Source: a virus. Taken from it: DNA of 64,000 nucleotides. Positions 22,826 to 57,145 of the stretch are shown piece by piece. The stretch's first letter is position 1, and each line of letters begins with the position of its first letter. The position numbers and the translations under genes were made by a program. The stretch covers positions 1 to 64,000 of the IMG/VR virus record IMGVR_UViG_3300028783_000001. The stretch is one strand, 5' to 3'. The notes beneath the pieces are model-generated. The model saw only the letters and a program-made list of their open reading frames with translations, was not told the DNA's origin and made no database searches.

Positions 22826-23875
22826 ATGCGCATCCTCATAACGGGTAATATGGGCTATGTAGGTTCGGTGCTTACACGTCATCTGCGCCGCGTCTCGGAA
22901 TCGACTTATATCGCAGGATACGACTCAGGTTTTTTCGCTCACTGTCTCACTACAACAAGTGAGCTCCCTGAGCGCTTCCTGGATGTACAACGATTCGGCG
23001 ACGTGCGATCCGTGATAAGTGCAAGCATGCTCCACGGCTTCGACGCTGTAGTTCATCTAGCGGCAGTATCAAACGATCCAATGGGCAACCGATTCGAGGC
23101 GGTGACCGATGAGATCAATCACCGCGCGAGCGTCGCACTAGCTGAGGCAGCCGCAGCGGCCGGTGTTAAAAACTTCGTCTTTGCGTCGAGCTGTAGTGTA
23201 TATGGCTTTGCAGAGGATGGCCATGCTCGTAGTGAGGAAGATACACTAAACCCACTAACGGCCTACGCGCGTTCGAAGATTGCTACCGAGGAGTCGCTTA
23301 AGAATATCAATCTCAATGGTATGACGGTAACGGCGTTGCGCTTCGCCACCGCATGTGGGATGTCTGATCGTCTGCGTCTTGATCTTGTGTTAAACGACTT
23401 CGTTGCCTGTGCGCTAGCGTCCGGTGAGATAACCGTGATGAGCGATGGTACCCCATGGAGACCTCTTATCGAAGTGCGCGATATGGCGCGGGCTATTGAG
23501 TGGTCAATCGCGCGACCTGCCGACAACGGCGGGCAGTTTTTAGTGGTGAACGCTGGCTCCAACAGTTGGAACCTTCAAGTAAAGGATCTAGCCCAGAGCG
23601 TCGCTGGTGTGGTCGGTAACACGACGGTGTCGATCAATACCGACGCACCACCTGACAAGCGTTCATATGAGGTCAACTTCGGTCTGTTCGAAAAATTAGC
23701 GCCCAACCACCAGCCATTGCAAACGCTCGATTCCACTATCACTAGATTGCGGGACGGGTTACGTGCGATAAACTTCAATGATCCAAACTTCCGACAGTCG
23801 CAACTCATCCGGCTAAGAGCACTAGAGAAGCATATGCTCGATGGACGGTTAACTGCCAATCTTCGCTGGGTGTAA
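22826..23875 (+). CDS. extended SDR, NAD-dependent sugar epimerase/dehydratase
   Basis: 349 residues. N-terminal Rossmann GNMGYVGS (7-14), then 'HLAAVSNDP' and the active-site pair S-S-C-S with YARSK (YxxxK). The 'LRFATACGMSDRLRLDL' and 'DGTPWRPLIEVRDM' segments are typical of the sugar-nucleotide SDRs found next to cytidylyltransferases. It may act as the 4,6-dehydratase or a C4/C2 epimerase on the CDP-sugar; the exact step cannot be fixed from sequence. Ribosome site is weak, so it is probably coupled to rfbF, four bases upstream. Confidence 0.8.
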   Translation: MRILITGNMGYVGSVLTRHLRRVSESTYIAGYDSGFFAHCLTTTSELPERFLDVQRFGDVRSVISASMLHGFDAVVHLAAVSNDPMGNRFEAVTDEINHRASVALAEAAAAAGVKNFVFASSCSVYGFAEDGHARSEEDTLNPLTAYARSKIATEESLKNINLNGMTVTALRFATACGMSDRLRLDLVLNDFVACALASGEITVMSDGTPWRPLIEVRDMARAIEWSIARPADNGGQFLVVNAGSNSWNLQVKDLAQSVAGVVGNTTVSINTDAPPDKRSYEVNFGLFEKLAPNHQPLQTLDSTITRLRDGLRAINFNDPNFRQSQLIRLRALEKHMLDGRLTANLRWV

Positions 23876-23894
23876 ACAGCTAGGGACTACATCA

Positions 23895-24452
23895 ATGATC
23901 TTTCACGATACACCGATACACGACGCCCGCCTTATCGAACTTGAGCGGCGAGGTGATGATCGCGGCTTCTTCGCTCGACTCTATTGCGAAGACGAATTTG
24001 CGGCTGAGGGGCTGGAGACGCACTTTGTTCAAGCAAACAATTCCTTCTCCCAGGTGAGAGGCACGCTTCGGGGAATGCACTACCAGTTACCACCATCTGC
24101 AGAAGTTAAAATCGTGCGCGCCATCAAGGGTGCCTTGTGGGACTGCATTGCAGATCTACGGCCCGATTCGCCTACATTCGGTGAATGGTTTGGAACGGAA
24201 TTAAACGACGAAAACCGTCGAATGCTATATGTTCCTCGTGGTGTAGCCCATGGGTTTCTGACGCTCACCGATAACACTGAGGCACTCTACCTAGTGAGCG
24301 ACTTCTACAACGCAGAGGCTGAGCGTGGCCTACGTTTTGATGATCCTTGGCTCAACATCAAATGGCCTACCGTTCCTGTGGAAATTTCCCATAAGGATAG
24401 AAGCTGGCCCGACTTCGATGCAAGCCGTGCGTGGGTAAAGGAAGGGCAATAA
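23895..24452 (+). CDS. rfbC: dTDP-4-dehydrorhamnose 3,5-epimerase-like
   Basis: 185 residues, the normal length for RmlC-type cupins. Conserved features: 'DDRGFFARLY', 'VQANNSFSQ', 'GTLRGMHYQ' with catalytic His62, 'VPRGVAHGFLTL', and the end 'GLRFDDPWLNIKWP'. Epimerises a 4-keto-6-deoxy sugar nucleotide at C3/C5, here presumably a CDP-linked one because of the adjacent cytidylyltransferase. Confidence 0.85.
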   Translation: MIFHDTPIHDARLIELERRGDDRGFFARLYCEDEFAAEGLETHFVQANNSFSQVRGTLRGMHYQLPPSAEVKIVRAIKGALWDCIADLRPDSPTFGEWFGTELNDENRRMLYVPRGVAHGFLTLTDNTEALYLVSDFYNAEAERGLRFDDPWLNIKWPTVPVEISHKDRSWPDFDASRAWVKEGQ

Positions 24453-24453
24453 G

Positions 24454-25398
24454 ATGACCCAGAAGATTTTGGTAACTGGCGCGCGCGGCTATCTCGGCGG
24501 ACGTCTGGTGAAGTACCTAGTCTCCCGTGGAAAAAGTGTGGTCGGTAGCACCAGAGCGTGGGGGATAAGCAATCCTCATGAATGGCCAGATTGCGTTCCT
24601 CTCGTCACTATCAATCCTACAGATAGCCCTCTCGTGACGAGAACCTTATTGGAAGGCATTGACTGTATATACCACCTCTCTGCAGCAAACGCAGCGCGTT
24701 CGTCACGGGATCCAGACGCGGCCTTATTTGAGACTGCTACCGGAACCAGACGTCTGATCGGAGCGGCAATTCTCGCAGGGGTGAAGCGATTCATCTTCAT
24801 TTCACCGATTCAAGTTTACGGAAACCCTCTATTTGGTGAGATCACAGAGAGCACTATTCCGAAACCAACCAACCCATACGCGATTACCCATCTAGCTGGT
24901 GAGCATTTTGCGCTAGCAGCCTCTAACCGAATCGACGTTACGGTAGTTCGGCTGTCCAATGGAACAGGAACTCCTGCGTGGCTCGACGGTGATCATTGGA
25001 TGCTAGCTGGAAACGATTTTGCTCGGCAGGCTGTTGAGACTGGTGAGATTGTTGTCAATGCACCAGGGCAGTGGCGAGATTTCATAGCTCTTTCAGACGT
25101 CTGTAGGGCGCTGTGTACCCTTTCGGAAAAGACGGGAATCAGCGTGTTAAATTTGAGTAGCGGAAAGGCGAGCCGCCTTGGTGATCTAGCTGCGTTAACA
25201 GCGTCGGTCGCGAGCCTGCTACTGGGAAAGCAAATTCTCGTCAACGGTCCAGGCGATCTTGGTGACTCCATACCACCGTTTCATATCTCCACCGAATTGC
25301 TAACCTCTCTTGGGTCTGTTCGGTTTATTCCATCAGGGGATGAGGCGTTGGAGTTGGAGCAGGCTGTAACAATTCAGAGGTTAATACACAGGAGATGA
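24454..25398 (+). CDS. SDR, NAD-dependent sugar epimerase/reductase
   Basis: 314 residues. GARGYLGG Rossmann loop (residues 8-15), 'IYHLSAANAARSSRDP', then a Thr/Ser-Pro segment 'FISPIQVYG' and YAITH where YxxxK would be: the lysine is replaced by H (YAITHLAGE), so catalysis may differ. Likely the 4-keto reductase or final epimerase of the sugar cassette. Start follows AAGGG. Confidence 0.75.
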   Translation: MTQKILVTGARGYLGGRLVKYLVSRGKSVVGSTRAWGISNPHEWPDCVPLVTINPTDSPLVTRTLLEGIDCIYHLSAANAARSSRDPDAALFETATGTRRLIGAAILAGVKRFIFISPIQVYGNPLFGEITESTIPKPTNPYAITHLAGEHFALAASNRIDVTVVRLSNGTGTPAWLDGDHWMLAGNDFARQAVETGEIVVNAPGQWRDFIALSDVCRALCTLSEKTGISVLNLSSGKASRLGDLAALTASVASLLLGKQILVNGPGDLGDSIPPFHISTELLTSLGSVRFIPSGDEALELEQAVTIQRLIHRR

Positions 25399-25402
25399 TG
25401 AA

Positions 25403-26188
25403 GTGAAGAAGGAACTTACAATAGCGGACCTACGCCCCGCCGCATACAACCCACGCCTCATTACACCTACCCAGAAGCTGGCCCTCCGTGATAGCTACCT
25501 CAAGTATGGGGATCTTAGTGGTATCACTTTCAATACGACGACCGGCAACCTTGTTGGTGGGCATCAGCGCTGCGAGTTGTTCAAGAAGAGTTCACGTGTC
25601 GTTCGCAATGCCCACAAAGATTCGATGGGAACCGTTGCCGTTGGGCATGTTGAGGTACCCGGCAAAGACGGTAAGACGCTAAAGATTCCATACCGAGAGG
25701 TCGCATGGACTGTAGACGTCGAGATGGCTGCTAATATCGCAGCAAACGCCGCTGGCGGTAGCTTCGACCAGGTGAAGCTCGGTAAGATCATCAAGCGCCT
25801 GGAGAAGCATAAGTTTCCCATTGAGTCGATTCCCATCGATTCCATAGAGCTATCCCGTGCTATACGAACATTCGAGTATTTGAATAGGGACAACGACAAG
25901 ACGGTACCTGTAAGCGGACATCTTCGCCGTATAGCAAAAGCCGATATGAGCGAGCATTGGCAAGGAATGCCAGAATACGAACACAAAGATATGATGGCTC
26001 ACCGCAAGATAATCGTAAACTTCGCGTCCGACGACGACGTAGCTAAGTTTGCTGCTAGGATCGGCCAGAAGATTGGACCTAATGAACGCAGCATCTGGTT
26101 TCCACCAGCCCGTATCGACACTTACGCTGATAAATGTTACACTGCTCAGCCTGCGGTGAGACGAGTAGCAAGTCGCAAGCAGGGATAA
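25403..26188 (+). CDS. ParB-like N-terminal domain protein
   Basis: 261 residues, GTG start behind AGGAGA. The first 90 residues match the ParB/Srx-like fold used by phage DNA-modification proteins: 'ADLRPAAYNPRLI', 'SYLKYGDLSGITFN' and 'TGNLVGGHQRCELF' (the GGHQR signature). The C-terminal part (about 185-245) has a strand/helix unit with 'DDVAKFAARIG' and 'SIWFPPARIDTYA' not known to me by name. ParB-like domains often sit beside methyltransferases and hypermodification enzymes in phages, in agreement with this island. Confidence 0.75.
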   Translation: MKKELTIADLRPAAYNPRLITPTQKLALRDSYLKYGDLSGITFNTTTGNLVGGHQRCELFKKSSRVVRNAHKDSMGTVAVGHVEVPGKDGKTLKIPYREVAWTVDVEMAANIAANAAGGSFDQVKLGKIIKRLEKHKFPIESIPIDSIELSRAIRTFEYLNRDNDKTVPVSGHLRRIAKADMSEHWQGMPEYEHKDMMAHRKIIVNFASDDDVAKFAARIGQKIGPNERSIWFPPARIDTYADKCYTAQPAVRRVASRKQG

Positions 26189-26192
26189 GGCC

Positions 26193-27131
26193 ATGGCGTC
26201 ACCACAATTTCCAATCTACATTTGCAGCAAGGGCCGTTCCCAGTATGGGCACACGATGCATGCGCTCGACCAGATGGGCGTACCTTACCGCATCATAGTG
26301 GATAAGTCTGACTACAGGGCGTACGCCAATGTGTTTGGAGCGAAGCGCATACTCGTACTAGATAGCTTCTATGAGCGCGAGTATGAGACGTGCGACGACC
26401 TGGGCATGTCGAAGTCGCTAGGCCCTGGGCCGAAGCGCAACTTTGCGTGGGACCACGCGATAGATGAAGGCCACGCATGGCACTGGATCATTGACGATAA
26501 TATCGCCGGCTTCTTTCGCTTCAACCTAAACCTAAAGACCCCTGTTGGTGACGGCACCATCCTCAGGTGCATGGAAGACTTCGTACTGCGTTACGAAAAT
26601 GTTGGAATGGCCGGCCCAAACTACTTCATGTTCGTGTCGCGCAAGTCGGCAACTCAGCCGCCGTTCGTCCTCAACACGCGCATCTACTCCTGCAACCTAA
26701 TCCGCAATGACCTACCTCTATCGTGGAGGTGCCGCTACAACGAGGATACCGACATATCGCTGCAGGTGCTCAAGTCGGGTTGGTGTACGGTTTTGTTCAA
26801 CGCCTTCCTGCAAGAGAAGCTGCCCACGCAGACTGTGCCGGGCGGGAACACCGCCGACTTCTATGTCAAGGAAGGCACGCGAGAGAAGTCGAAGATGCTA
26901 TGCCGTATGCACCCTGATGTTACCGAGTTGGTGGATAGGTTTGGGCGCGATCACCACTACGTGGATTACAGTGGGTTCCGCACGCCGCTCATATTCAAGA
27001 AGGATCAGCAGATTTCGGGTGTAAACAACTATGGTATGACACGTATCCACGTTGACCGTTCCCTACGCCGTTCCCTGGGAGATGCTATGCGCTCAGGCAG
27101 ACAGAAGGTCAAGGATTCCAAGGCCAGCTAG
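26193..27131 (+). CDS. TET-associated-type glycosyltransferase (DNA base glycosylation)
   Basis: 312 residues. A GT-A-like fold with the features I associate with TET/JBP-associated glycosyltransferases of phages: 'YICSKGRSQY' at the start, 'MGVPYRIIVDKSDYRAY', 'GPGPKRNFAWDHAI' and the nucleotide-sugar metal motif 'WIIDDNIAGFF' (DDN at 101-103), later 'YNEDTDISLQVLKSGW'. Such enzymes add sugars to modified bases in phage DNA. Here it follows the sugar genes and ParB-like gene, so I infer that the deoxysugar is transferred to a modified base. No TET oxidase is in this window. Confidence 0.75.
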   Translation: MASPQFPIYICSKGRSQYGHTMHALDQMGVPYRIIVDKSDYRAYANVFGAKRILVLDSFYEREYETCDDLGMSKSLGPGPKRNFAWDHAIDEGHAWHWIIDDNIAGFFRFNLNLKTPVGDGTILRCMEDFVLRYENVGMAGPNYFMFVSRKSATQPPFVLNTRIYSCNLIRNDLPLSWRCRYNEDTDISLQVLKSGWCTVLFNAFLQEKLPTQTVPGGNTADFYVKEGTREKSKMLCRMHPDVTELVDRFGRDHHYVDYSGFRTPLIFKKDQQISGVNNYGMTRIHVDRSLRRSLGDAMRSGRQKVKDSKAS

Positions 27132-37166: not shown

Positions 37167-37631
37167 ATGAACATGGGTTTCTTTGACAACTTCTTCGGTA
37201 GCGCGAAACGCACTATCGCAGTCTACACCAACGACTACACCTTCCTGCATGCGGCTACCGCTGCTGCAGCGTTGGTCATCAATGCCGACGGCGTGGTCGA
37301 GAAGGCCGAGGTCGATTCGGCCCTGGAGGGTTTGCTCAACAATGAGATTCTCAAGGGCTCGTTTAAGAGCCTGGAGATTTCATCGTCGCTGACGGAGGCC
37401 ATCGGCCGGTCAAAGACTCGCTCCGGCAAGGTGGTTCTGAACCGTCAGCTGGAAGACCTCGCGGATCGTCCCGAAACGCAGCGCCAGGACGTGTTCCTGA
37501 TCGCCGCCGACGTTGGTGATACTGACAAGGAAACTGACGACCAACCCGGTATCGGCACCGCCGAACTAGCCGTTTTGAACGCCGTCGGCAAGCTGCTCGG
37601 CCTCGACGCTAACAAGCTTCTCGCTGCCTAA
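37167..37631 (+). CDS. terB: TerB-like (tellurite resistance) protein
   Basis: 154 residues (a second ATG at 37173 is possible); AAAGGGAA upstream. TerB-fold features: 'ATAAAALVINADGVVEKAEVDSA' with the DG-x-V-x-x-x-E metal-like site, 'DRPETQRQDVFLIAADVGDTD' and a final 'TAELAVLNAVGKLLGLDANKLL'. TerB-type domains occur with TerC membrane proteins in stress and phage-defence-related Ter systems. The adjacent TerC-like gene supports the call. Confidence 0.75.
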   Translation: MNMGFFDNFFGSAKRTIAVYTNDYTFLHAATAAAALVINADGVVEKAEVDSALEGLLNNEILKGSFKSLEISSSLTEAIGRSKTRSGKVVLNRQLEDLADRPETQRQDVFLIAADVGDTDKETDDQPGIGTAELAVLNAVGKLLGLDANKLLAA

Positions 37632-37648
37632 CAGGGAGTGAGGTAGGG

Positions 37649-37748
37649 AGTCGAGCGGCGTTGGTGATGGCGTCTCATTTAGGTGAGCGTGAGCCTTGAG
37701 TGATCGGGTTTTATGGTGCCGCTCGACTTTCCTTAAACTGGAGACGCC
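37649..37748 (+). promoter_or_regulatory. structured leader of terC (possible RNA switch)
   Basis: Four segments in the order A-B-A'-B': A AGTCGAGCGGC (37649-37659) pairs with A' (37718-37728) over 11 bp; B GGCGTCTC (37669-37676) pairs with B' GAGACGCC (37741-37748). The order means a pseudoknot if both form. B' covers the terC ribosome site (GGAG at 37740-37743). A competing stem CTCA / TGAG inside the loop would release B'. Canonical yybP-ykoY boxes are not evident. Confidence 0.5.
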
Positions 37749-37750
37749 TT

Positions 37751-38401
37751 ATGTTCCACACTCTAATGCTACTCATCGCAATCGTTTGGATTAACCTACT
37801 GTTATCTGGTGACAACGCGATCGTCATAAGCATGGCGTGCAGGAATATTCCTCTAGAGCAGCGGAGGGTGGGGATTGGTATTGGCGCTGGCGTCGCCGTT
37901 GCCCTACGACTCGTGCTCCTGTTCGCGGCGTCGTGGGTCCTACTTGTTCCAGGAGTTAAGTTGGCTTGTGGAGCCTTCCTCTTCTGGGTGGCGCTTGGTA
38001 TGCTACCCACGGGCGTTGAGGAACCTGTAGATGTATCGAAGGCACCTGGCAAGCTGCTAGCTGCGGTATGGACGGTGGCCATCGCAGACGTTACGATGAG
38101 CACCGACAACGTCGCTGCCGTCGCAGCAATCGCCAGCGGCAATTACACGCTGCTGGTGATCGGCATGCTGATCAGCATTCCGTTTGTCGTGATTGGCGCA
38201 ACGCTAATCTCGAAGGTGCTGGAGTTGTTTCCGATAATGGTTGTCGCTGGTGCAGCCCTTCTGGGCTACCTTGCGGCGACTACACTAGCGAGCGATCCGC
38301 TCGTCGCCATACCTTCTCCGTACTCAGTATTTAGCGGACTGGTAATCGCGGCAATCTTCGCAATGCTTGGCTTCCACCGACAATTGGTGCTGAGTAAATA
38401 G
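37751..38401 (+). CDS. terC: TerC-family integral membrane protein
   Basis: 216 residues, about seven hydrophobic segments. TerC signatures are visible: 'LLSGDNAIVISMACRN' in the first helix and 'MSTDNVAAVAAIASG' in the middle, both with the conserved Asp-Asn pair for metal transport. TerC/Alx/YkoY proteins export metal ions such as Mn2+ or give tellurite resistance; location is the host inner membrane. I use the ATG at 37751 because GGAG precedes it. It ends inside a TGAGTAAATA motif. Confidence 0.85.
   Translation: MFHTLMLLIAIVWINLLLSGDNAIVISMACRNIPLEQRRVGIGIGAGVAVALRLVLLFAASWVLLVPGVKLACGAFLFWVALGMLPTGVEEPVDVSKAPGKLLAAVWTVAIADVTMSTDNVAAVAAIASGNYTLLVIGMLISIPFVVIGATLISKVLELFPIMVVAGAALLGYLAATTLASDPLVAIPSPYSVFSGLVIAAIFAMLGFHRQLVLSK
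38391..38400 (+). promoter_or_regulatory. TGAGTAAATA motif overlapping the terC end
   Basis: Exact copy; the terC codons CTG-AGT-AAA-TAG run through it. Next gene starts at 38481. Confidence 0.6.
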
Positions 38402-38480: not shown

Positions 38481-38882
38481 ATGACTGGCAAGAATCACAG
38501 CAACGATCACGTCGCTCCTCCGGCCACCACCGAGACTCCGGTGACGGAAACTCCGGTCGAGGTCGTGCAGACGGCACAGACCGAAACGCAGCCGACGGCT
38601 GAGGCAACCACAACCGAGGTTCCGGTTACTGGTCCGGTGCCGGACGAAACGATTGCCCAGGCGACGGCTGAGACGATTAAGGTCACGCTGATTGGCGCGC
38701 TCGATGCGCTCTATGAGGGACCTGCCGGCAAGACTCTCAAGGACATGATCCCTGAGCTCGCCGGCACGAAGAAGTATCAGGCGCGCGAAATCATCGACGG
38801 CAAGGCGAAGATGATCAGCCAAGTCGTTCCTTGGATGCACTCTGCCACGATCAAGACGGTTGAGCACGCAGTTCACGGGTAG
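38481..38882 (+). CDS. Thr/Pro-rich plus helical protein, 133 aa
   Basis: ATG behind AAGGGAA. Residues 10-60 are Thr/Glu/Val/Pro-rich and disordered; the remainder is helical and ends in a single Gly. It is directly upstream of the E2-like/E1-like pair, so I considered a ubiquitin-like modifier, but no beta-grasp pattern or Gly-Gly end is visible. Function unknown. Confidence 0.6.
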   Translation: MTGKNHSNDHVAPPATTETPVTETPVEVVQTAQTETQPTAEATTTEVPVTGPVPDETIAQATAETIKVTLIGALDALYEGPAGKTLKDMIPELAGTKKYQAREIIDGKAKMISQVVPWMHSATIKTVEHAVHG

Positions 38883-38909: not shown

Positions 38910-38945
38910 AGCGTCGTGGGATTCTGTCCCACGACGCTTTCATCG
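38910..38945 (+). terminator. intrinsic terminator-like hairpin
   Basis: 12-bp perfect stem AGCGTCGTGGGA / TCCCACGACGCT with a 5-base loop and a short T-rich tail (TTCATCGTTT). Confidence 0.55.
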
Positions 38946-38961
38946 TTTCAAGGGGAACACC

Positions 38962-40473
38962 ATGGCTACTAGAAAACCAAGAGCTGCCGCCGCCGCACTC
39001 GAGATACCGCTCTACTTTAGAGATGGCTCGCTTAGAGTTCTTTCTGCAGAAAGAATTTGTGAGAGGGATAGGCCCGAATTTTTGATGATCATGAGTGCCC
39101 TCGGTATCGCGCCGATGAGCTACGAGAGTGCACAGAAGCTAATGGGTAGCGACGAAGATTCTGATGATGCAGCCCACTATAAGTCTAAGCGGCGTAAGCC
39201 AAAGCAGGAAGCTACCCTCGGTGATATCCTTGCACGCGCCCTAAACTCTAGTGATGGTACAGGTTCGGGTGGTGTAGAAGACACGACCGCAATCGTCGTG
39301 GACATCGCAAACGCGGCGACTTCTAAGCCAGTCAAGGTTGAAAAGCCTAGCGCCTACTATCCCGTATATCGATTTCATCGTGAGGCAATAAACCTCTCAT
39401 ATAGCCATATGGAGATTCTTAACTGTAACTTCGTGAAAGACTTAATCGCAAACGGTACCTACCTAATCCATACTCATGACAGGTACATTCGCGCAACGAC
39501 TCTTGAGGAGATTTCCGACGTCGAGACGCTTACACGGCTATCGCAGAAGATCTTTGACTGCAACCGCAGCTTCGATATGAAGCGCTACGACTACCTCCGC
39601 ACGCTAGTGTTTACGAGCGTCGTGGTTGATGGGGTTCACTGTAACAAGCGTCCCTTGGAGCTGCCAGCTGGCTGGCGTATTATTCCTGCATCTGAGATTG
39701 GGGATAAGCACGCTGATGATGTCCTATACGTCAACGTGGGTGGTCGTACCCTCTACTTTGCTGGCCTCAGATCGCGTTCACAGGCCAGAGCCATGATTAC
39801 CGATATCGTGCTAAACCATAATATCAGGTCGGAAGAGTTTGCGGCCATATGGGCCGGTGAAACGCTAAAGTCGATAGCGGACGAGCTGGCGTCTGCCGTA
39901 TGGCGTAGGAAAGACTATCTGCAGAAGATGCAGATAGAGGTAATATCAGAATCGCGCCTCAAAAAGATGCACGACATGTTGAAGACGGGTGGTTCAGCAT
40001 GGGTTACCAGCATGGTCGAGCAGCTGATGAACGCCGGGTTTGCGAGCAGTAGGTTCGTAGCCGCCGGCATCATCATGACCACGGGGGACATGTACATAAA
40101 TATCGGCGATCACGAGACTGAGCGAGAGACTCGTTATATCGGAAAGTATGAGGTCATTCTGGGAATGTCCAAGTCGGTGGCAATTCGCAATATCGCCAGC
40201 CCACGGAAGGGAGTTAATCACCCGGTGTTCGACGACGACAATTGCCTCGGTGGGTTTGGTGAGATCCTCACGAGGTGCTTCAGGACCGACGACTACCTAA
40301 CGCTTGGCCTATCGATCCTGGCAATGATCCAGCACTTCAATCCAAGCTATCTGGAAAATTTCAAGGAGTGGCCTTCGGAGATTCCTGCCGAGACATACGT
40401 GTGTAAGATACACACGCTTTACGGTGAAAGCGTTGAAGATTATAGTGGTGATGAAGAGGAAGACGAGGGGTGA
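38962..40473 (+). CDS. E2-like (UBC-fold) conjugating-enzyme domain protein
   Basis: 503 residues, ATG behind AAGGGG. The C-terminal 110 residues show an E2-like core: strands 'RYIGKYEVILG', then NHP (419-421) and eight residues after His420 the Cys428 in 'DDDNCLGGFGEIL', followed by two helices ('DDYLTLGLSILAMIQHFNP'). This is the HPx...xC plan of ubiquitin-conjugating and bacterial E2-like enzymes. Residues 130-330 are a separate mixed domain not recognised; residues 70-125 are disordered and the C-terminus is acidic. The E1-like gene 57 bases downstream strongly supports the reading. Known bacterial relatives occur in PRTRC-type and CBASS-type cassettes. Confidence 0.65.
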   Translation: MATRKPRAAAAALEIPLYFRDGSLRVLSAERICERDRPEFLMIMSALGIAPMSYESAQKLMGSDEDSDDAAHYKSKRRKPKQEATLGDILARALNSSDGTGSGGVEDTTAIVVDIANAATSKPVKVEKPSAYYPVYRFHREAINLSYSHMEILNCNFVKDLIANGTYLIHTHDRYIRATTLEEISDVETLTRLSQKIFDCNRSFDMKRYDYLRTLVFTSVVVDGVHCNKRPLELPAGWRIIPASEIGDKHADDVLYVNVGGRTLYFAGLRSRSQARAMITDIVLNHNIRSEEFAAIWAGETLKSIADELASAVWRRKDYLQKMQIEVISESRLKKMHDMLKTGGSAWVTSMVEQLMNAGFASSRFVAAGIIMTTGDMYINIGDHETERETRYIGKYEVILGMSKSVAIRNIASPRKGVNHPVFDDDNCLGGFGEILTRCFRTDDYLTLGLSILAMIQHFNPSYLENFKEWPSEIPAETYVCKIHTLYGESVEDYSGDEEEDEG

Positions 40474-40485
40474 TAGGGGCTCATG

Positions 40486-40511
40486 AGCCGTGTGGGACGT
40501 CCCACACGGCT
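40486..40511 (+). terminator. palindromic hairpin between the E2-like and E1-like genes
   Basis: Perfect 26-base palindrome AGCCGTGTGGGAC and its complement, no T-tract. It may set the ratio of the two products or mark an mRNA end. Confidence 0.45.
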
Positions 40512-40530
40512 AGACTCATAGGGAAACGAC

Positions 40531-41244
40531 ATGACATACGATCTTAGTAGGATTCGGCACGTGGTCGACGCTGACAAGTTTGATGGTGGGATAGCCGTCG
40601 TCGGCTGCGGTGCAATTGGTTCCCGTGTTGCTCACCTCTTATGCGACATGGGGTTTGGGGAAAAGTTGTGCCTCTATGATCCCGATGTGGTGGAGATGCA
40701 CAACTTGGCGTCGGCCACCTACGAGCTGTCTGATATTAGAACGTCAAGCCCTTACCCGAAGGTTGCCGCGCTTCGCTATCAACTGGAGCGCAAGTGGGGT
40801 GAGCCCATACGCTACTCAAATACGATGAGGATAACGCGTCGAGGCCAGTGTGGTCATAAAACGGTATTCACCTGCCTCGATAGTATGGCCGAGCGAAAGA
40901 AGGTGATGGGAACCGCTCTATTCCTTGATGGCCACGCGAAGTGGGTCTACGACGCCCGCATCACAGCTACGACTATCTTCGCCATCGGGTATGACATAAC
41001 GGACCCCAAGCAGCACCGCCATTACATGGAGGAGTTGTATGACGACCCGGATCCAGCGCAGGACGCTCAGATGGGCGGCTGCAATCAGAAAACGAGCGTT
41101 GCCTCGACGGCAGCCATCGCGGCCTCTCTCGTCGTGCAGCTGTTCATGAACCACGTGAACAAGGTCGACGGGCCAAATGAAATCGTCGTCTCATTACGTG
41201 ATTGGACGATGGATGCGCGTTTCTATGAAAAGACGCCTGAGTAA
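40531..41244 (+). CDS. E1-like ThiF/MoeB-family adenylyltransferase
   Basis: 237 residues, ATG behind AGGGAAAC. ATP-binding loop GCGAIG (25-30), then 'KLCLYDPDVVEMHNLASATYE' with the acidic residue and D-x-V-x-x-x-N-L of E1 enzymes, 'CLDSMAERK', and the catalytic Cys184 in 'GGCNQKTSVASTAA'. E1 enzymes adenylate the C-terminal Gly of a ubiquitin-like protein and pass it to the catalytic Cys, then to an E2. The gene pairs with the E2-like gene upstream. No ubiquitin-like protein or JAB protease is apparent nearby. It ends in a TGAGTAAATA motif. Confidence 0.85.
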   Translation: MTYDLSRIRHVVDADKFDGGIAVVGCGAIGSRVAHLLCDMGFGEKLCLYDPDVVEMHNLASATYELSDIRTSSPYPKVAALRYQLERKWGEPIRYSNTMRITRRGQCGHKTVFTCLDSMAERKKVMGTALFLDGHAKWVYDARITATTIFAIGYDITDPKQHRHYMEELYDDPDPAQDAQMGGCNQKTSVASTAAIAASLVVQLFMNHVNKVDGPNEIVVSLRDWTMDARFYEKTPE

Positions 41245-41264: not shown

Positions 41265-42266
41265 ATGAAACAGCCAATCCCATTCAAAGTTGGACGTTTC
41301 TATGTTTACGTCCAGTATCGTGATGCAGCCATGAGGACTCCCTTCTATGTTGGTAAGGGCAAAGATCGTCGGTGGGAATATCATGAATGGCGCGCGGCAT
41401 CGACCAAACACAGATCGCATCACTTGAACATCATCCGGCAGTTCCAGCGTGAGGGACTGCCGGTCCCCAAGAGGAAGGTCAAGACTGGTCTGACTGAGCA
41501 ACAGGCTTTTGATTTGGAGGTCATGCTGATCGCTAAGTACGGGATTGAGCGTGATGGTGGTTTATTAGTGAATGAATCGTATGGTGGCGATGGTGGAACT
41601 ACCGGATATGTGCATACGCGTAAATCGAGGAAAAAGATTGGTGCTGCATCAAAAGTGAATCATGCTAATCCAGCGACGAAGGCAAAGCATGCGGCATCAT
41701 CAAGAGCTGCCCACGCACGACCAGACGTAAAGGAAAAGCATCGTGCGGCGACTAAGGCAGCTCTTGCTCGACCAGAAGTAAAGAAGCGGCATATGGCGGG
41801 TAGCAAAGCAGTTATGTCGAGTGCTAAGATGCGAATTAGGACTGGCAGGGCTTCCAGAATTTCATGGGCACGACCAGAGGTTAAAGCCAAACGTCGTGCG
41901 ACTGATGCTTTACCAGAGACAAAACGAAGACGGAGCGAGGCGTCAAGAACTGCATTAGCACAACCTGGTGCAAGGAAAAAACAGCATGATGGGTTAGTGA
42001 AATGGTGGGCACGCAGGCGCGGTAAAAATAAGGAGAGACGCGATGAGAGACCTCAAGGAATGCCTGCAGGGCAACGTCACCTTTGTGGGGTATCGCAAAG
42101 GGATTCTTATATATACAAATGCTCCAATGGCTTTCTATTTGAAGTGCCGACCAGCGAAACAGGCGACGCCACCTTTCAGGCGACGGAGCGGGCTATGCTG
42201 CTCATGAATTGGATCAAGGCCGGCATCGCCTACATCGCGAAGCAGGGCGGCGAACTAAACGGGTAG
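41265..42266 (+). CDS. GIY-YIG homing endonuclease with NUMOD repeats
   Basis: 333 residues in this frame. The N-terminal 90 residues form a GIY-YIG-like nuclease: 'FYVYVQYRDA' (degenerate GIY), 'PFYVGKGKDRRWEYH' (YIG-like, GKG), and 'AFDLEVMLIAKYG' with the catalytic Glu. Then come at least five Lys/Arg/Ala-rich copies of a NUMOD3-like unit ('...ARPEVKxKHRAA...'), probably reading DNA. Such enzymes are mobile and insert beside genes they cut. The last 75 residues are not part of it but the downstream gene read in another frame (see 42043). Confidence 0.75.
   Translation: MKQPIPFKVGRFYVYVQYRDAAMRTPFYVGKGKDRRWEYHEWRAASTKHRSHHLNIIRQFQREGLPVPKRKVKTGLTEQQAFDLEVMLIAKYGIERDGGLLVNESYGGDGGTTGYVHTRKSRKKIGAASKVNHANPATKAKHAASSRAAHARPDVKEKHRAATKAALARPEVKKRHMAGSKAVMSSAKMRIRTGRASRISWARPEVKAKRRATDALPETKRRRSEASRTALAQPGARKKQHDGLVKWWARRRGKNKERRDERPQGMPAGQRHLCGVSQRDSYIYKCSNGFLFEVPTSETGDATFQATERAMLLMNWIKAGIAYIAKQGGELNG
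42043..42266 (+). pseudogene. small gene disrupted at a TA repeat (or fused to the endonuclease)
   Basis: ATG at 42043 with AAGGAGA upstream begins a frame that ends after 54 codons at 42207. Up to residue 24 ('VTFVGYRKGILIY') it looks like a real protein, then turns into random sequence at TATATATA (about 42108-42117). The endonuclease frame takes over there with a coherent 'KCSNGFLFEV...ERAMLLMNWIKAGIAYIA' to 42266. Removing one TA joins both halves into a 73-residue protein. This points to a 2-bp TA gain in the repeat. Confidence 0.55.
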
Positions 42267-43765: not shown

Positions 43766-44106
43766 GGCTCGACTACATCGACCTTCACGTCAAGCCCGAA
43801 GAGGCGACCGCCATTCGCAAGGCCCTGCTAACCACAGGTTGGGGTTCGGAGTTTGTAACGCACTGGCCCAATACCGGCCTGACGCAGTATCGATTAACGC
43901 GCCTGCCGCAGATGGCGCAGGCATACAATGAAGGGGCGATCAAGATGACGACCAAGACGGAAACTACGAGTGCAACAACAAAGCTGTGCAACACGGTTGA
44001 CATCGTCTCTGCGATGATAGCAGCTGGCTGGATTCATTCAAATACGACAAACGACCATGTCTCTGGTACTCAGACAACCTACTTCGTACGTGTGGTGCCG
44101 GCATGA
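43702..44106 (+). CDS. hypothetical protein, up to 134 aa, start uncertain
   Basis: The frame is convincing from about 43766 ('GLDYIDLHVKPEEATAIRKAL' region) to the end, but no good start is visible: the GTG at 43702 lies inside the previous gene without a ribosome site, and the ATG at 43945 (GGGG upstream) would cut off the conserved-looking first part. A frameshift or an unseen start may be involved. Unknown family. Confidence 0.5.
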   Translation: MGGLLARLQLHLSQTSDPGGIGLDYIDLHVKPEEATAIRKALLTTGWGSEFVTHWPNTGLTQYRLTRLPQMAQAYNEGAIKMTTKTETTSATTKLCNTVDIVSAMIAAGWIHSNTTNDHVSGTQTTYFVRVVPA

Positions 44107-44909
44107 AATTCTTGATGGTCAACCCATCATACTTCGACGTCACGTATTCGATTAACCGGTGGATGCCAGACAACATCGGTCGCGTCGACACCGTAGAATC
44201 CGTATCGCAGTGGATGAAACTGCACGACTTCATAAGCAGCCACGCCGAGGTTACGACAATCCCCGGCGAACAGGGACTACCTGACATGGTGTTCAGCGCC
44301 AACGCTGGATTCGTCTTAGACGGTCTTGCCACAGTGTCAAACTTCAAGTGCGTGGAGCGGGAACGTGAGGAGGGATTCTTCGCAAACTGGTTCAGTAACA
44401 ACGTTGACTGTGCGATGCACATGCGCGTTCCATTCGAGGGAGCCGGTGACGCCCTGTGGGATGAATACAGTCGTTTAACGTGGTGCGGATACGGGTTTCG
44501 CTCCGACGCGCTCGCACGGACAATACTAGGTACGCGATACGGAATTAATGTTGTGTCACTCGGTCTCATAGATCCACGCTTCTATCACCTCGACACCTGC
44601 CTGTGTCCGCTATCGTCTGGGCATGTAGTCTACTATCCTGGTGCCTTTGATGCGCCGTCTCTTCTAGAGATTCGTGAGCGCGTCGAACCCTCGATGAGAA
44701 TTGAAGTCTACGAGCATGAGGCTCGCAACTTCGCATGCAATGGCGTCGAGGTGGGTGGTTACTACGTTGCCCACCGGCTATCGGATAGCCTACAGCGCCG
44801 GCTGTGCGACGCGGGCTATAAACCAATCGAACTTGAGCTGGGAGAGTTTATGAAGTCTGGGGGTTCAGCGAAGTGTCTGACCCTGCGTCTTGACTACGTT
44901 AGTGCGTGA
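44103..44909 (+). CDS. DDAH/arginine-deiminase-superfamily amidinohydrolase
   Basis: 268 residues, ATGA overlap with the previous gene. Motifs of the guanidino-group-modifying superfamily are in order: 'DMVFSANAGFV' near 61-71, 'FEGAGDAL' 111-118, 'GYGFRSD' 129-135, 'YHLDTCL' with His162 and Asp164, and the nucleophile region 'SGGSAKCLTL' with Cys258. Members hydrolyse dimethylarginine or arginine, or transfer amidino groups. In a phage it could alter host arginine metabolism or act on modified arginines; the substrate cannot be read. Ends in a TGAGTAAATA motif. Confidence 0.75.
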   Translation: MKFLMVNPSYFDVTYSINRWMPDNIGRVDTVESVSQWMKLHDFISSHAEVTTIPGEQGLPDMVFSANAGFVLDGLATVSNFKCVEREREEGFFANWFSNNVDCAMHMRVPFEGAGDALWDEYSRLTWCGYGFRSDALARTILGTRYGINVVSLGLIDPRFYHLDTCLCPLSSGHVVYYPGAFDAPSLLEIRERVEPSMRIEVYEHEARNFACNGVEVGGYYVAHRLSDSLQRRLCDAGYKPIELELGEFMKSGGSAKCLTLRLDYVSA

Positions 44910-53708: not shown

Positions 53709-53731
53709 AGGTTTGAAAGACGGTGACGTTC

Positions 53732-55705
53732 ATGAAGTTTTTTACACGAGTTGGAGATGAAGACGGTGCCTACCTGCAGCACGATGATCCTGATGGGGAT
53801 TGCGTGCTGCTCGTAGTTACGTCGGGTGATAAGTCGGGTAGTCCGCTGTCAGGCTACGCCGAGGCCCTACTCACAAACGTCTTTGTCAAGACGGTTCCAA
53901 TACTGGGTGCCTGGAAGCGCATCGTTGTCGCAACTGCTGGAACTAGCATCGGTAAGCTAGTCAAGCAGCATGGAGCCGATCACATAATGCTGATGGGAAA
54001 GCAGTTTTCTCAAGTCTTAATCAAGCCGTCTGGTCTGAGACCAGAAACCAACATGCTCGGCATTCTTGTCAACCACCAAAACAGGCGCTGGATCGTCACA
54101 CCGGCGCTGTCGGTCTACGGCATTGGCAAGGAGGCCAAGGGCATCTATGCAGCGATGCTCGGACACTTGTACAGGCACCTTGAGTTGTTGCGTGTTGGTC
54201 TAATCGGTTGGAAGGACCCAGCGGCTCCGTGCGAGTGTCGTATGGTTCGCAACAGTGATGACTGGGACGAGCTTCGTGAGCTGTTGGAGACAAAGCGGCT
54301 GGTCGCGATAGATACCGAGACAAACAACCTAGAGCGCATAAACAACACAGTCTTGATGGTCCAGTTTGGCTTCGACGGTCGCACGGGGTGGGTATTGCCC
54401 GTCGACCACTCTGGATCAACACTCCCACGAGACGTGCTCGACGCCGCACTAGAGTGGCTAACCGACTACTTCGAACGTGGCCGTCCTTCCACGCACGTCT
54501 ACGTAAATGCCAAGTTTGATTTGCACCAGCTCATTTCGCTAATGAAGCTGCGTTGGTATAATCACAACGTGTTCGACGTTCAGGCAGCAGCATTCAATCT
54601 TGATGAGATGCAGCAGGGTAGGTTCCTAATCGGTTACGCCAAGAAGGAAGAGACGTGGGCACTCGGTCGGCTATGCATCGAGGCCGGCATGCCTCACTAC
54701 CAAAATACGGAGATTGGTAAGGGTGATCGTGGTAGGCTAGCAGCACTTGATATTGAACTGGTCGCGAAGTATGGCGCCGTCGACGTTGTGCTCCCGATTC
54801 GCCTCATGCGGATGCAACTGGCTCTTGCCAAGTGGAGGTCGGAGCACTTCCACGGCCACCCCTACACTAAGTTTGCGCAGGCAGTGATCCAGGTCGATGG
54901 CGTTAAGATCATTCAATTCGTGGCAATGGAGCGCAACGGGCTACTGGTCGACCGTAAGTATGTAGTATCACTACAGGGTCCAAACTCTCCAATCTTGAAA
55001 GAAATTCGCGACGCTACTGCGAAGTTTCTCAGCTTCCCAGAGATTTCCACGACAAACGCCAAGCTACTGAGCAGCCGCAACGTGAGATCGCGTTCGCTGT
55101 TTGGGGCGAAGGGCTCGCAGTCGATGGTGTTTGATCCGGGTAAGCCGGCTCATCAGCAGATGCTATTCTTCGACGTCGCGAAGCTGTCTCCGGTCAATGA
55201 GACCAAGACGGGGTTGCCCAGCATAGACGACAAGTTTAAGGCGAAGTATAAGACTACCCCACTCGTCGCAGCGTTTGCAAACCTCGATGAAGCCAAGAAG
55301 ATGCACTCGACGTTTATTGCCGGGTACTATAAGATTCTCATCGGCAATCCAGACAATAAGGATGGCTGCCTACGAACCGAGTTTGGGTACCTAAACGTGA
55401 AGACCGGCCGGTGTTCAGCCTCGTGGACTCCTTGCCTTACTAAGAAAGGTACGGTCCAGATAAAGGATATCATTCCAGGTGATGAAGTATGGACTCATAA
55501 GAATCGTTGGCGCAAGGTAACTCATGTATGGAAGAAGGGAATCCAACCAATGCTTACAATTATGATGGCTGACGGAACTACATTTACAGGAACTCCTAAT
55601 CATCGGGTTTTAGATGCTGATAGTCGATGGGTATCTCTTAAAGATGTGCAGGAAGCGTTGAACGCTGCTAAAACTTCCGAGAATTTTGGTACCCCAGAGA
55701 AGTAA
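53732..55705 (+). CDS. polA: DNA polymerase I, N-terminal part, fused to N-intein
   Basis: 657 residues from the ATG at 53732 (ribosome site weak; a GTG at 53723 is the alternative). Residues about 190-390 form the 3'-5' exonuclease domain ('LVAIDTETNN', 'VYVNAKFDLHQL', 'KYGAVDVVLPI'). The polymerase domain begins after it and runs to 'TGRCSASWTP', the conserved TGR(L)SS region of family A. There the extein ends and an intein starts at Cys (nucleotide 55433): 'CLTKKGTVQIKDIIPGDEVW' with block B 'GTPNHRVL', then a stop after 90 intein residues. The remainder of the polymerase is in the next gene. Confidence 0.85.
   Translation: MKFFTRVGDEDGAYLQHDDPDGDCVLLVVTSGDKSGSPLSGYAEALLTNVFVKTVPILGAWKRIVVATAGTSIGKLVKQHGADHIMLMGKQFSQVLIKPSGLRPETNMLGILVNHQNRRWIVTPALSVYGIGKEAKGIYAAMLGHLYRHLELLRVGLIGWKDPAAPCECRMVRNSDDWDELRELLETKRLVAIDTETNNLERINNTVLMVQFGFDGRTGWVLPVDHSGSTLPRDVLDAALEWLTDYFERGRPSTHVYVNAKFDLHQLISLMKLRWYNHNVFDVQAAAFNLDEMQQGRFLIGYAKKEETWALGRLCIEAGMPHYQNTEIGKGDRGRLAALDIELVAKYGAVDVVLPIRLMRMQLALAKWRSEHFHGHPYTKFAQAVIQVDGVKIIQFVAMERNGLLVDRKYVVSLQGPNSPILKEIRDATAKFLSFPEISTTNAKLLSSRNVRSRSLFGAKGSQSMVFDPGKPAHQQMLFFDVAKLSPVNETKTGLPSIDDKFKAKYKTTPLVAAFANLDEAKKMHSTFIAGYYKILIGNPDNKDGCLRTEFGYLNVKTGRCSASWTPCLTKKGTVQIKDIIPGDEVWTHKNRWRKVTHVWKKGIQPMLTIMMADGTTFTGTPNHRVLDADSRWVSLKDVQEALNAAKTSENFGTPEK
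55433..55702 (+). other. N-terminal half of a split intein
   Basis: 90 residues from Cys1. Block A (C-L-x..., GD at 17-18) and block B (T-P-N-H) are present. No endonuclease domain. This stretch is AT-richer than the polymerase sequence around it, consistent with separate origin. Confidence 0.8.
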
Positions 55706-55786
55706 ATTACCTGCTCCCCTCCCTTAGTCGTCGGTAGTAGGGTGATAAATCTTCTACCTGTACCAATGACGTGAACAGGAGGCAAC
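55706..55786 (+). other. 81-base gap between polymerase halves
   Basis: Contains no ORF of note; ends in AGGAGG, the ribosome site for the second half. I see no tRNA-like or group I intron core in it. Confidence 0.6.
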
Positions 55787-55915
55787 ATGAAGTTAATGAC
55801 ACCCAATGGTCCGATGGAAGTTATCAGTGTGAAGCCGGCAGGTATTCACGAGGTTTTTGACATTACCGTGGACGAGGATGCGAGTTTCCTATCAGCTAAC
55901 GTGTTCTCACACAAC
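55787..55915 (+). other. C-terminal half of the split intein
   Basis: 43 residues ending His-Asn before Ser. Together with the N-half it forms a mini-intein of about 133 residues without endonuclease. Confidence 0.8.
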
Positions 55916-57145
55916 TCGGGGAGCAGCAATCCAAACCTGCAGAACCAGATCAGCCGCAACAAGGTGCGGGCTAAGATTGTCAAGCGGCAGTTTGTTGCGC
56001 GCAAGGGTCGGCTGATAATCAAAGACGATTACGGGGCTCACGAGGTACGTGGTTGGGGCATCGCCTCAAACGATCCCAAGATTGGTGAGACATTTTGGAA
56101 GGGGATGCAGCTGCGCCTGCGCTACGAGGCGCAGCTAACCATTCCAGCTGTAAAGGTTGAGTGGTGGGCTAAGCAGCTGCAGGCAGCCGACGTTCATTAC
56201 CAAAATTACGGTATCATACACAAGGTCGATCCACTCACGGTAACGAAGCCACAACGAGATAGTATTAAGTCGGTGATCTTTGGTGTTACCTATGGAAAAG
56301 GTATCCCGTCGTTGGCGCGTGATATCGGTGTAGACGAAGCAGAAGCGCAGCGAATCCACAACCTGATATTCAAGAAGACATTTGCCGTTGGCGGTAGGTG
56401 GTTGGAGACGCTGCAGGAGAGCGCCCGCGAACACCTAGTGGCAAAGAACCTTCTCGGTGGAACGCGCCACCTCTGGGGTCATCTACATACCGAACGGCGC
56501 GTCCATGGTAGCGAGGATCGTAGGACGCCAAATAGCGTGATTCAGGGACCGTCATCAAACCTCGGCTTTCGTGGAAGCTACGAGACTCGCAAGTTGGCGT
56601 GGGAGATGTTTGAGAGTCGCGACATCAACCTAGACTACGCCCAGTGCAATGCAGTGCACGACTCAAACGAGAGCGAGGGTAGTATCGTAAACATACCACT
56701 ACTCGTCTACCTACGCTATCACGGTGCTACTACCATGCTGCACCGGTGGGTCCGCGACGTGTTTGATCAGACGGTCATAGTCGGTTACGAGATTGACTGC
56801 GAGATTGGCGGGTCGCTGGCTACTATGATGAAGTCGCCCAGATGGGACTCGCAGGTTGCCGCAATTAGAGCGGGCATCGAGTGGGTAAATAAGGAGCTGG
56901 GGTGGGACTTGGATGTTGAAGCCTACATGAAGATTGTGGAGCACAACGCCAAGATCATCCATGCAATCCGCCGGCGTGAGATTGTTCGACAGCTCAAGGC
57001 TGGTGAGCAGACAAACTTCTATATGGAGATGACCGCCGACAACTGCCTTTCATATGATCTTATATTCACAGCTCCTCCTGAAAAGGTTAAATCCGCAGTG
57101 AGTAAAGAACCTAGCAAGGCGCTCATGCGGGAGTTGGCGCGCTGA
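55787..57145 (+). CDS. polA: DNA polymerase I, C-terminal part, fused to C-intein
   Basis: 452 residues, ATG behind AGGAGG. Residues 1-43 are the C-intein, ending 'FSHN' before Ser44 (the +1 nucleophile), with 'VFDITVDEDASFLSANVFSHN' as blocks F and G. From Ser44 the polymerase resumes in phase with the family-A order: 'SSNPNLQNQ', motif A 'IIKDDYGAHEVR', motif B 'RDSIKSVIFGVTYGKG' (R-x3-K-x3-F-G-x2-Y-G) and motif C 'NAVHDSNE' (HD-S replaces HDE). Protein splicing in trans would yield one active enzyme of about 976 residues. A TGAGTAAAGA motif lies near the 3' end. Confidence 0.85.
   Translation: MKLMTPNGPMEVISVKPAGIHEVFDITVDEDASFLSANVFSHNSGSSNPNLQNQISRNKVRAKIVKRQFVARKGRLIIKDDYGAHEVRGWGIASNDPKIGETFWKGMQLRLRYEAQLTIPAVKVEWWAKQLQAADVHYQNYGIIHKVDPLTVTKPQRDSIKSVIFGVTYGKGIPSLARDIGVDEAEAQRIHNLIFKKTFAVGGRWLETLQESAREHLVAKNLLGGTRHLWGHLHTERRVHGSEDRRTPNSVIQGPSSNLGFRGSYETRKLAWEMFESRDINLDYAQCNAVHDSNESEGSIVNIPLLVYLRYHGATTMLHRWVRDVFDQTVIVGYEIDCEIGGSLATMMKSPRWDSQVAAIRAGIEWVNKELGWDLDVEAYMKIVEHNAKIIHAIRRREIVRQLKAGEQTNFYMEMTADNCLSYDLIFTAPPEKVKSAVSKEPSKALMRELAR
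57099..57108 (+). promoter_or_regulatory. TGAGTAAA-type motif near a gene end (variant)
   Basis: TGAGTAAAGA inside the polymerase gene end, 101 bases before the gene at 57200. Confidence 0.4.

Follow-up and report, generated by a model that had tools for sequence, protein, structure and literature searches.

Bacterial ubiquitin-like conjugation is known chiefly as an anti-phage weapon. According to Iyer et al. (2006; PMC1779556), bacterial operons of types 6a-6e, including the PRTRC-like type 6d, bring together an E1, an E2-like protein, a modifier and a JAB in one operon; from phages, only the modifier and JAB of lambda and T1 tail assembly are reported there. The Bil system (BilABCD) is a four-part cascade of E1, E2, modifier and JAB, in which BilD combines a pair of adenylation domains with a Cys domain and BilB has a CEHH motif (PMC11354881). 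A literature search, with preprints and most subscription journals outside its reach, yielded no description of a phage-encoded E1-E2-JAB system.

The DNA analysed here, referred to as the window, comprises the first 64 kb of the 168,737-bp IMG/VR virus record IMGVR_UViG_3300028783_000001. Three consecutive genes in it (Table 1) are read here as a phage-encoded ubiquitin-like conjugation cascade leading from a modifier to the E1 and on to the E2, probably one-way, and we give this reading a probability of roughly 0.7. The E2-like and E1 ORFs had already been proposed in a preliminary description of this DNA. They were confirmed as two genes 57 nt apart, each preceded by a GGG(G)AA-type ribosome-binding site. 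A perfect hairpin lies in each of the two intergenic stretches. The one between the modifier and E2 genes is possibly a partial terminator or processing site, and if both hairpins act in this way, output would fall from modifier to E2 to E1. Immediately 5' of the module are TerB-like and TerC/YjbE-like genes (window 37167-38401), and a GIY-YIG homing-endonuclease-like gene (41265-42266) starts 20 nt past the E1 gene.

Table 1. Coordinates of the proposed conjugation genes and associated features in the window
Feature	Position	Strand	Basis
Probable ubiquitin-like modifier, 133 aa	38481..38882	+	Position, build, Xanthomonas-phage counterpart
Perfect 12-bp hairpin, modifier/E2 intergenic	38910..38938	+	Inverted repeat; stretch fold z -4.5
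E2-like (UBC-like) protein, 503 aa	38962..40473	+	Leave-out profile, AlphaFold2 model, VIA-align
His420-Pro421, E2 HP motif	40219..40224	+	Conservation in aligned relatives
Cys428, proposed E2 catalytic cysteine	40243..40245	+	Invariant, 30 aligned relatives
Perfect 13-bp hairpin, E2/E1 intergenic	40486..40511	+	Inverted repeat; fold z -4.0
ThiF-type E1-like adenylyltransferase, 237 aa, single adenylation domain	40531..41244	+	PF00899
Cys184, proposed E1 catalytic cysteine	41080..41082	+	Invariant, 74/74 phage relatives

The pair had been likened at the outset to the bacterial PRTRC, CBASS and Bil-type systems. As to the general kind of system this likeness stands, but it does not extend to membership in any of the three. 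The window E1 scores 19.3 bits with the NCBIfam model PRTRC_ThiF, far below the cut-off of 144.75, and the two neighbours scanned, the modifier and E2 genes, gave no match to the NCBIfam PRTRC models. With the 6A-MBL model, the E1 likewise stays below the threshold (36 vs 320 bits). Type II CBASS (Cap2/Cap3) has the E1 and E2 chemistry in common with the window pair. However, Cap2 is a fused E1-E2 encoded beside a nucleotidyltransferase, whereas the window has one gene for the E1 and another for the E2. Of the window E1, PADLOC E1-E2 models cover the nucleotide-binding part alone; none of them matches the E2, and no CD-NTase or CBASS gene was found among ten scanned neighbours. Compared with Bil, the window E1 consists of a single domain, and its E2 has a His before the Cys and lacks the CEHH motif (C428 and E434 are followed by L436 and R441). 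By the models, motifs and neighbours scanned, the window system is not PRTRC, CBASS or Bil. What we rate as new is a separate phage-borne family with a JAMM-less branch; the chemistry and the logic are known.

The 237-aa protein belongs to the ThiF family (PF00899, 7.2e-13), with the nucleotide loop GCGAIGS at residues 25-31. Across 74 phage relatives Cys184 is invariant, as are Gly25, Gly27, Gly30, Asp50, Asn58, Asp117 and Arg143, so that the ATP loop and the catalytic-type cysteine read from the sequence beforehand are both borne out. The protein shares 33% identity with the E1 of Xanthomonas phage PhiXhv-12 and sits on a long branch of the E1 tree.

When used as a query, this E1 matched the Xanthomonas phages PhiXhv-12, -15 and -16 and Erwinia phage Ep032. 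The gene family was opened via such E1 searches alone: the 503-aa protein has no Pfam, NCBIfam family or significant PHROG match, and direct searches with it returned no relatives because its sequence is too divergent. An 892-aa upstream protein of the PhiXhv phages has the core of the window E2, YIGxY..AIRNIAxP..HP..CLGxF. Viral contigs searched with a profile of these E1s then gave at least 222 relatives, from which 80 loci were kept, and the E2-like neighbour family was traced by iterated HMM searching. Among 84 phage loci, the E2 is found in 65, a JAMM gene in 76 and both in 61, and the usual gene order is modifier - E2 - JAMM - E1. One full set (locus L082) consists of a 71-aa modifier ending in VRGG, a 206-aa E2 with HPHVRDGRPCLG, a 197-aa JAMM protein and a 221-aa E1. 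A 428-aa protein upstream of E1 and JAMM in locus L001 was considered as an E2 and rejected, as pairwise and profile comparison both spoke against it.

The assignment of the window protein to this E2 family was evaluated with a leave-out profile, built without the proteins of the window, PhiXhv, Ep032 and L005. It recognised the window protein with 25.5 bits (E 3e-6), the best of 1,000 shuffles reaching 8.9 bits, and ranked it first of the 1,064 ORFs of the record (E 6.6e-7; runner-up 0.0057). An alignment-based genome search overlooked the window E2, and the full HMM recovered it. Neither Cys428 nor the Pro of the HP motif varies in 30 aligned E2 relatives, and the His of this motif and the Gly after the Cys are conserved in at least 90% of the members; the spacing of eight residues between His420 and Cys428 is as first described. 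When the family profile was compared to PDB sequences, 57 of the 60 best matches were named E2 enzymes, mainly eukaryotic, and the matches align across the HPN..C region, each of them weak (best E 0.04). Three of the 30 family members touched PF00179 (UQ_con; best 0.005), and the Pfam prokaryotic E2 models were not matched by the phage E2s at E<=0.1. In the phage E2s, the likeness to the eukaryotic HPN..C active site is greater than that to any named prokaryotic E2 family of Pfam.

Regarding its build, the 503-aa protein has an N-terminal region (residues 1 to ~300), a helical/coiled-coil linker, a UBC-like domain (~345-475) and an acidic C-terminal tail. An AlphaFold2 model of residues 308-503, made from an alignment that left out two rows from the phages collection, has a pLDDT of 76.8 and a pTM of 0.64. 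In order, it predicts two helices, the first of which is long, then a beta meander and, past the HP..C loop, two more helices. The VIA-align neighbours of the model are mostly UBC/RWD folds with modest Z scores: the Knl1 RWD (6.4, the highest), UFC1 (6.1), a Plasmodium E2 (5.6) and bacterial E2s (5.2 and 4.0). Foldseek gave no significant match for the model in PDB and BFVD (best E 0.6). With moderate confidence, the C-terminal domain is predicted to have a UBC-like topology. Both this topology and the conservation of Cys428 in homologues, on which the preliminary description had staked its reading, held up. The phage-encoded pair of ubiquitin-like conjugation that it proposed is supported by the Pfam match of the E1 and the leave-out profile of the E2, and the E2 assignment is strong by sequence context and moderate by structure. 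In four other loci, L002 (3187-5865), L045, L049 and L025, the E2 genes end Cys-rich and zinc-ribbon-like; these ends are perhaps built-in ligase or target-binding parts.

Relatives of the module are spread over dozens of phage lineages, and what reads as a full cascade occurs in groups as different as the large Xanthomonas phages, the Flavobacterium phages and the crAss-like phages of the gut. Closest in layout to the window are PhiXhv-12 (PV764601, 227.6 kb) and Ep032, which have the same order modifier - E2 - E1, no JAMM gene, the same E2 core and a low-complexity modifier tail. The PhiXhv-12 E2 differs in its length of 892 aa and its Cys-rich ends, and the modifier of this phage ends in GG, whereas that of the window ends in HG. 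In PhiXhv-12 and Ep032 these genes are annotated as thiamine biosynthesis or hypothetical and nothing else. Likewise, in the Flavobacterium Fpv phages and the crAss-like Steigviridae, an E1 labelled thiamine biosynthesis protein or ThiF adjoins a JAMM gene. For the phage E1s, the "thiamine biosynthesis" label is misleading. The E2 match in three named phages is weak or absent (one of three, 0.009). The sets of IMG/VR contigs, Flavobacterium phages and Steigviridae have the E1 family of the window and mostly its E2 family too; unlike the window, they carry a JAMM gene and most of their modifiers run past the last Gly. A scan of ~85,000 species genomes for the JAMM pattern of one subgroup yielded no more than three contigs, all from MAGs and 6 to 30 kb long, and each of them has the full modifier-E2-JAMM-E1 set. 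These are possibly phage contigs, and the outcome, for the one JAMM subgroup scanned, is in line with a viral home of the module.

According to the preliminary description, no modifier was evident and the system might be minimal or novel. The first statement is probably wrong, and a minimal system of two genes is improbable, given the gene at 38481-38882, which sits where nearly every relative has its modifier gene. Its 133-aa product has a low-complexity N-terminal tail (residues 1 to ~60; 80% A, T, E, P, V, Q) and a C-terminal domain of ~70 aa that ends in His-Gly. The PhiXhv-12 counterpart (140 aa) has the same place and two-part build and ends in KASGG. A global alignment of the two C-terminal domains gave a z of 4.9, with none of 2,000 shuffles as good; by chance, one other ORF of the 117 in the window aligned similarly well to the PhiXhv-12 modifier. 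A structure model of the 133-aa protein, of low confidence (pLDDT 52), shows the order beta-beta-alpha-beta-beta, and its neighbours are mostly ubiquitins (Z <= 4.2).

In at least 41 other loci, short genes beside the E2 encode a ThiS/MoaD/SAMP-like domain, and the phage modifier profile matches SAMP2 (7e-9), MoaD and ThiS in the PDB. Many phage modifiers end in GG or in GG plus 1-3 residues. Among the closest relatives, clear GG-ended modifiers are found before the E2 (PhiXhv-12) or after the E1 (L005). Profile comparison supports the PhiXhv and L005 modifiers (pairwise E ~5e-4, and 1.4e-4 with the window added), and the window modifier alone is marginal (14.1, against a shuffle mean of 9.1 and maximum of 13.6; n=60). 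A leave-out phage modifier HMM misses the window protein (0.4 to 4.3 bits, within the shuffle range), and for this reason the claim is lowered: based on position and the Xanthomonas-phage counterpart, 38481-38882 is a probable ubiquitin-like modifier. No ORF of the record convincingly outscored it in this role. At L005:6715-7458, L058:3444 and L123:7225-7665, the encoded modifiers have a double beta-grasp build reminiscent of polyubiquitin or ISG15.

A deconjugase, which was not evident at first sight either, is indeed missing from the virus's own record: neither the JAMM HMM, run on the 168.7 kb of this possibly incomplete record, nor Pfam models found a JAMM protein. The HMM gave no match in the complete 227.6-kb PhiXhv-12 genome, and as a sensitivity control 60 loci not used in its training were scanned, of which it recognised 53. 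The motif E, HxH, S, D is kept in all aligned members of the JAMM set. Because the JAMM is missing from both the record and the complete PhiXhv-12 genome, the window is filed as a JAMM-less branch and not as a full member of the modifier-E2-JAMM-E1 module. Within the stretches examined, E2-bearing loci without a JAMM gene are only those of the window, PhiXhv-12, Ep032 and L005, which form one clade on the E1 tree (support 95/90). The modifier ends exactly in Gly in all three JAMM-less sets compared, versus six of 41 JAMM-bearing sets; the three lineages are related and therefore represent one event, not three. In most JAMM-bearing sets, one to several residues follow the last Gly of the modifier or its end is not GG. 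On the simplest reading, the JAMM would mature the modifier precursor and strip the modifier from its targets, and the clade would have lost it after its modifier became ready-made. Taken as a whole, we consider it an even bet that phages own a widespread and anciently diversified cascade, nearly confined to viral contigs, which became one-way in the clade of the window through JAMM loss and a mature modifier.

In the proposed cascade, the E1 would adenylate the C-terminal Gly of the modifier, which would then be held as a thioester on Cys184 and handed to Cys428 in the UBC-like domain of the E2. The E2 would attach the modifier to target proteins at their amino groups, presumably those of lysines, and the large N-terminal region of the E2 perhaps selects the substrate. 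As the Gly is exposed at translation and no JAMM is encoded, maturation would be unneeded and tagging probably irreversible. Across phages, the genes that recur beside the module serve replication, encoding DnaB helicases, a primase, exonucleases, a DNA polymerase and ParB-like proteins. In PhiXhv-12 it is placed between DNA ligase and topoisomerase genes, and in crAss-like phages between those for a DNA primase and a uracil-DNA glycosylase. Action early or during phage replication is therefore the likeliest setting. If active, the module would be a new viral means to reprogramme cells or to shield the phage's own proteins. Cultured carriers exist, which opens the question to direct tests.

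A ThiF-type E1 and a small protein might also supply a thiocarboxylate destined for a tRNA, a cofactor or a modified nucleotide; ThiF/ThiS, MoeB/MoaD and CysO/Mec+ work in this manner, and the E2-like domain would then be an accessory. The nearest sequences to the phage modifier family, i.e. SAMP2, MoaD and ThiS, agree with such a role, and phages do modify nucleic acids, the window itself containing a DNA-sugar gene set. However, most loci link the E1 to a UBC-like partner with an invariant Cys, which would be superfluous for a sulfur carrier. The window E1 is also devoid of CxxC pairs, which bind zinc in ThiF and MoeB, and no cofactor or thiolation gene is found among the recurrent neighbours. 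We regard sulfur transfer as quite unlikely. A non-catalytic UBC-like domain, serving for binding like RWD or UEV domains while the E1 alone transfers the modifier, seems highly improbable. Transfer by an E1 only does exist in the archaeal SAMP and Urm1 pathways, and non-catalytic RWD-fold chains rank level with E2s in VIA-align, but RWD domains lack a cysteine such as Cys428, which is invariant across very divergent members.

Unlikely, too, is that the E1 and E2 use a modifier from the host or from another part of the phage genome and so, for example, jam or hijack a ubiquitin-like defence of the host, with 38481-38882 being unrelated. This would explain why the modifier profile misses the protein, and countering host defence was the idea of the preliminary description itself, conjugation systems being known host defences. 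On the other side stand the position of the gene, the counterpart in PhiXhv-12 with its same build and GG end, and the lack of a convincingly better ORF in the record. Moreover, relatives in hosts as unlike one another as Bacteroides, Flavobacterium and Xanthomonas bring their own modifiers or full sets. A cascade supplied with the phage's own modifier is the reading we prefer.

Several other genes were observed beside the module or in the window. In one gut-phage clade, a reverse transcriptase with the motifs QG..SP and YADD/FADD adjoins the module, and 13 of 70 scanned neighbours match RVT_1 / phrog_1423. These genes encode ~310-420 aa and lie downstream of or near the E1 in L006, L007, L008, L010, L011, L014, L019, L024, L027, L029, L031, L033, L059 and L083. 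A diversity-generating retroelement was considered for these reverse transcriptases and rejected, as their motif is QG..SP and not SQ. Directly after the complete set of L082 (L082:7227-9758), a ClpB/ClpC-like AAA+ unfoldase of 843 aa with a Cys-rich N-terminus is encoded, a possible case of coupled tagging and unfolding. Within the window, genes for a nucleotide-sugar epimerase, a dTDP-4-dehydrorhamnose 3,5-epimerase and an NAD-dependent epimerase are followed by a TET-associated glycosyltransferase gene (PF20691, 5e-38). Together, these genes (22826-27131) are likely a DNA-base glycosylation set. The family A DNA polymerase (53723-57145) is split between two ORFs with 81 nt between them, one coding for the exonuclease and the other for the polymerase part, and a dimethylarginine dimethylaminohydrolase-like gene (PF19420, 2e-8) is present at 44103-44909.
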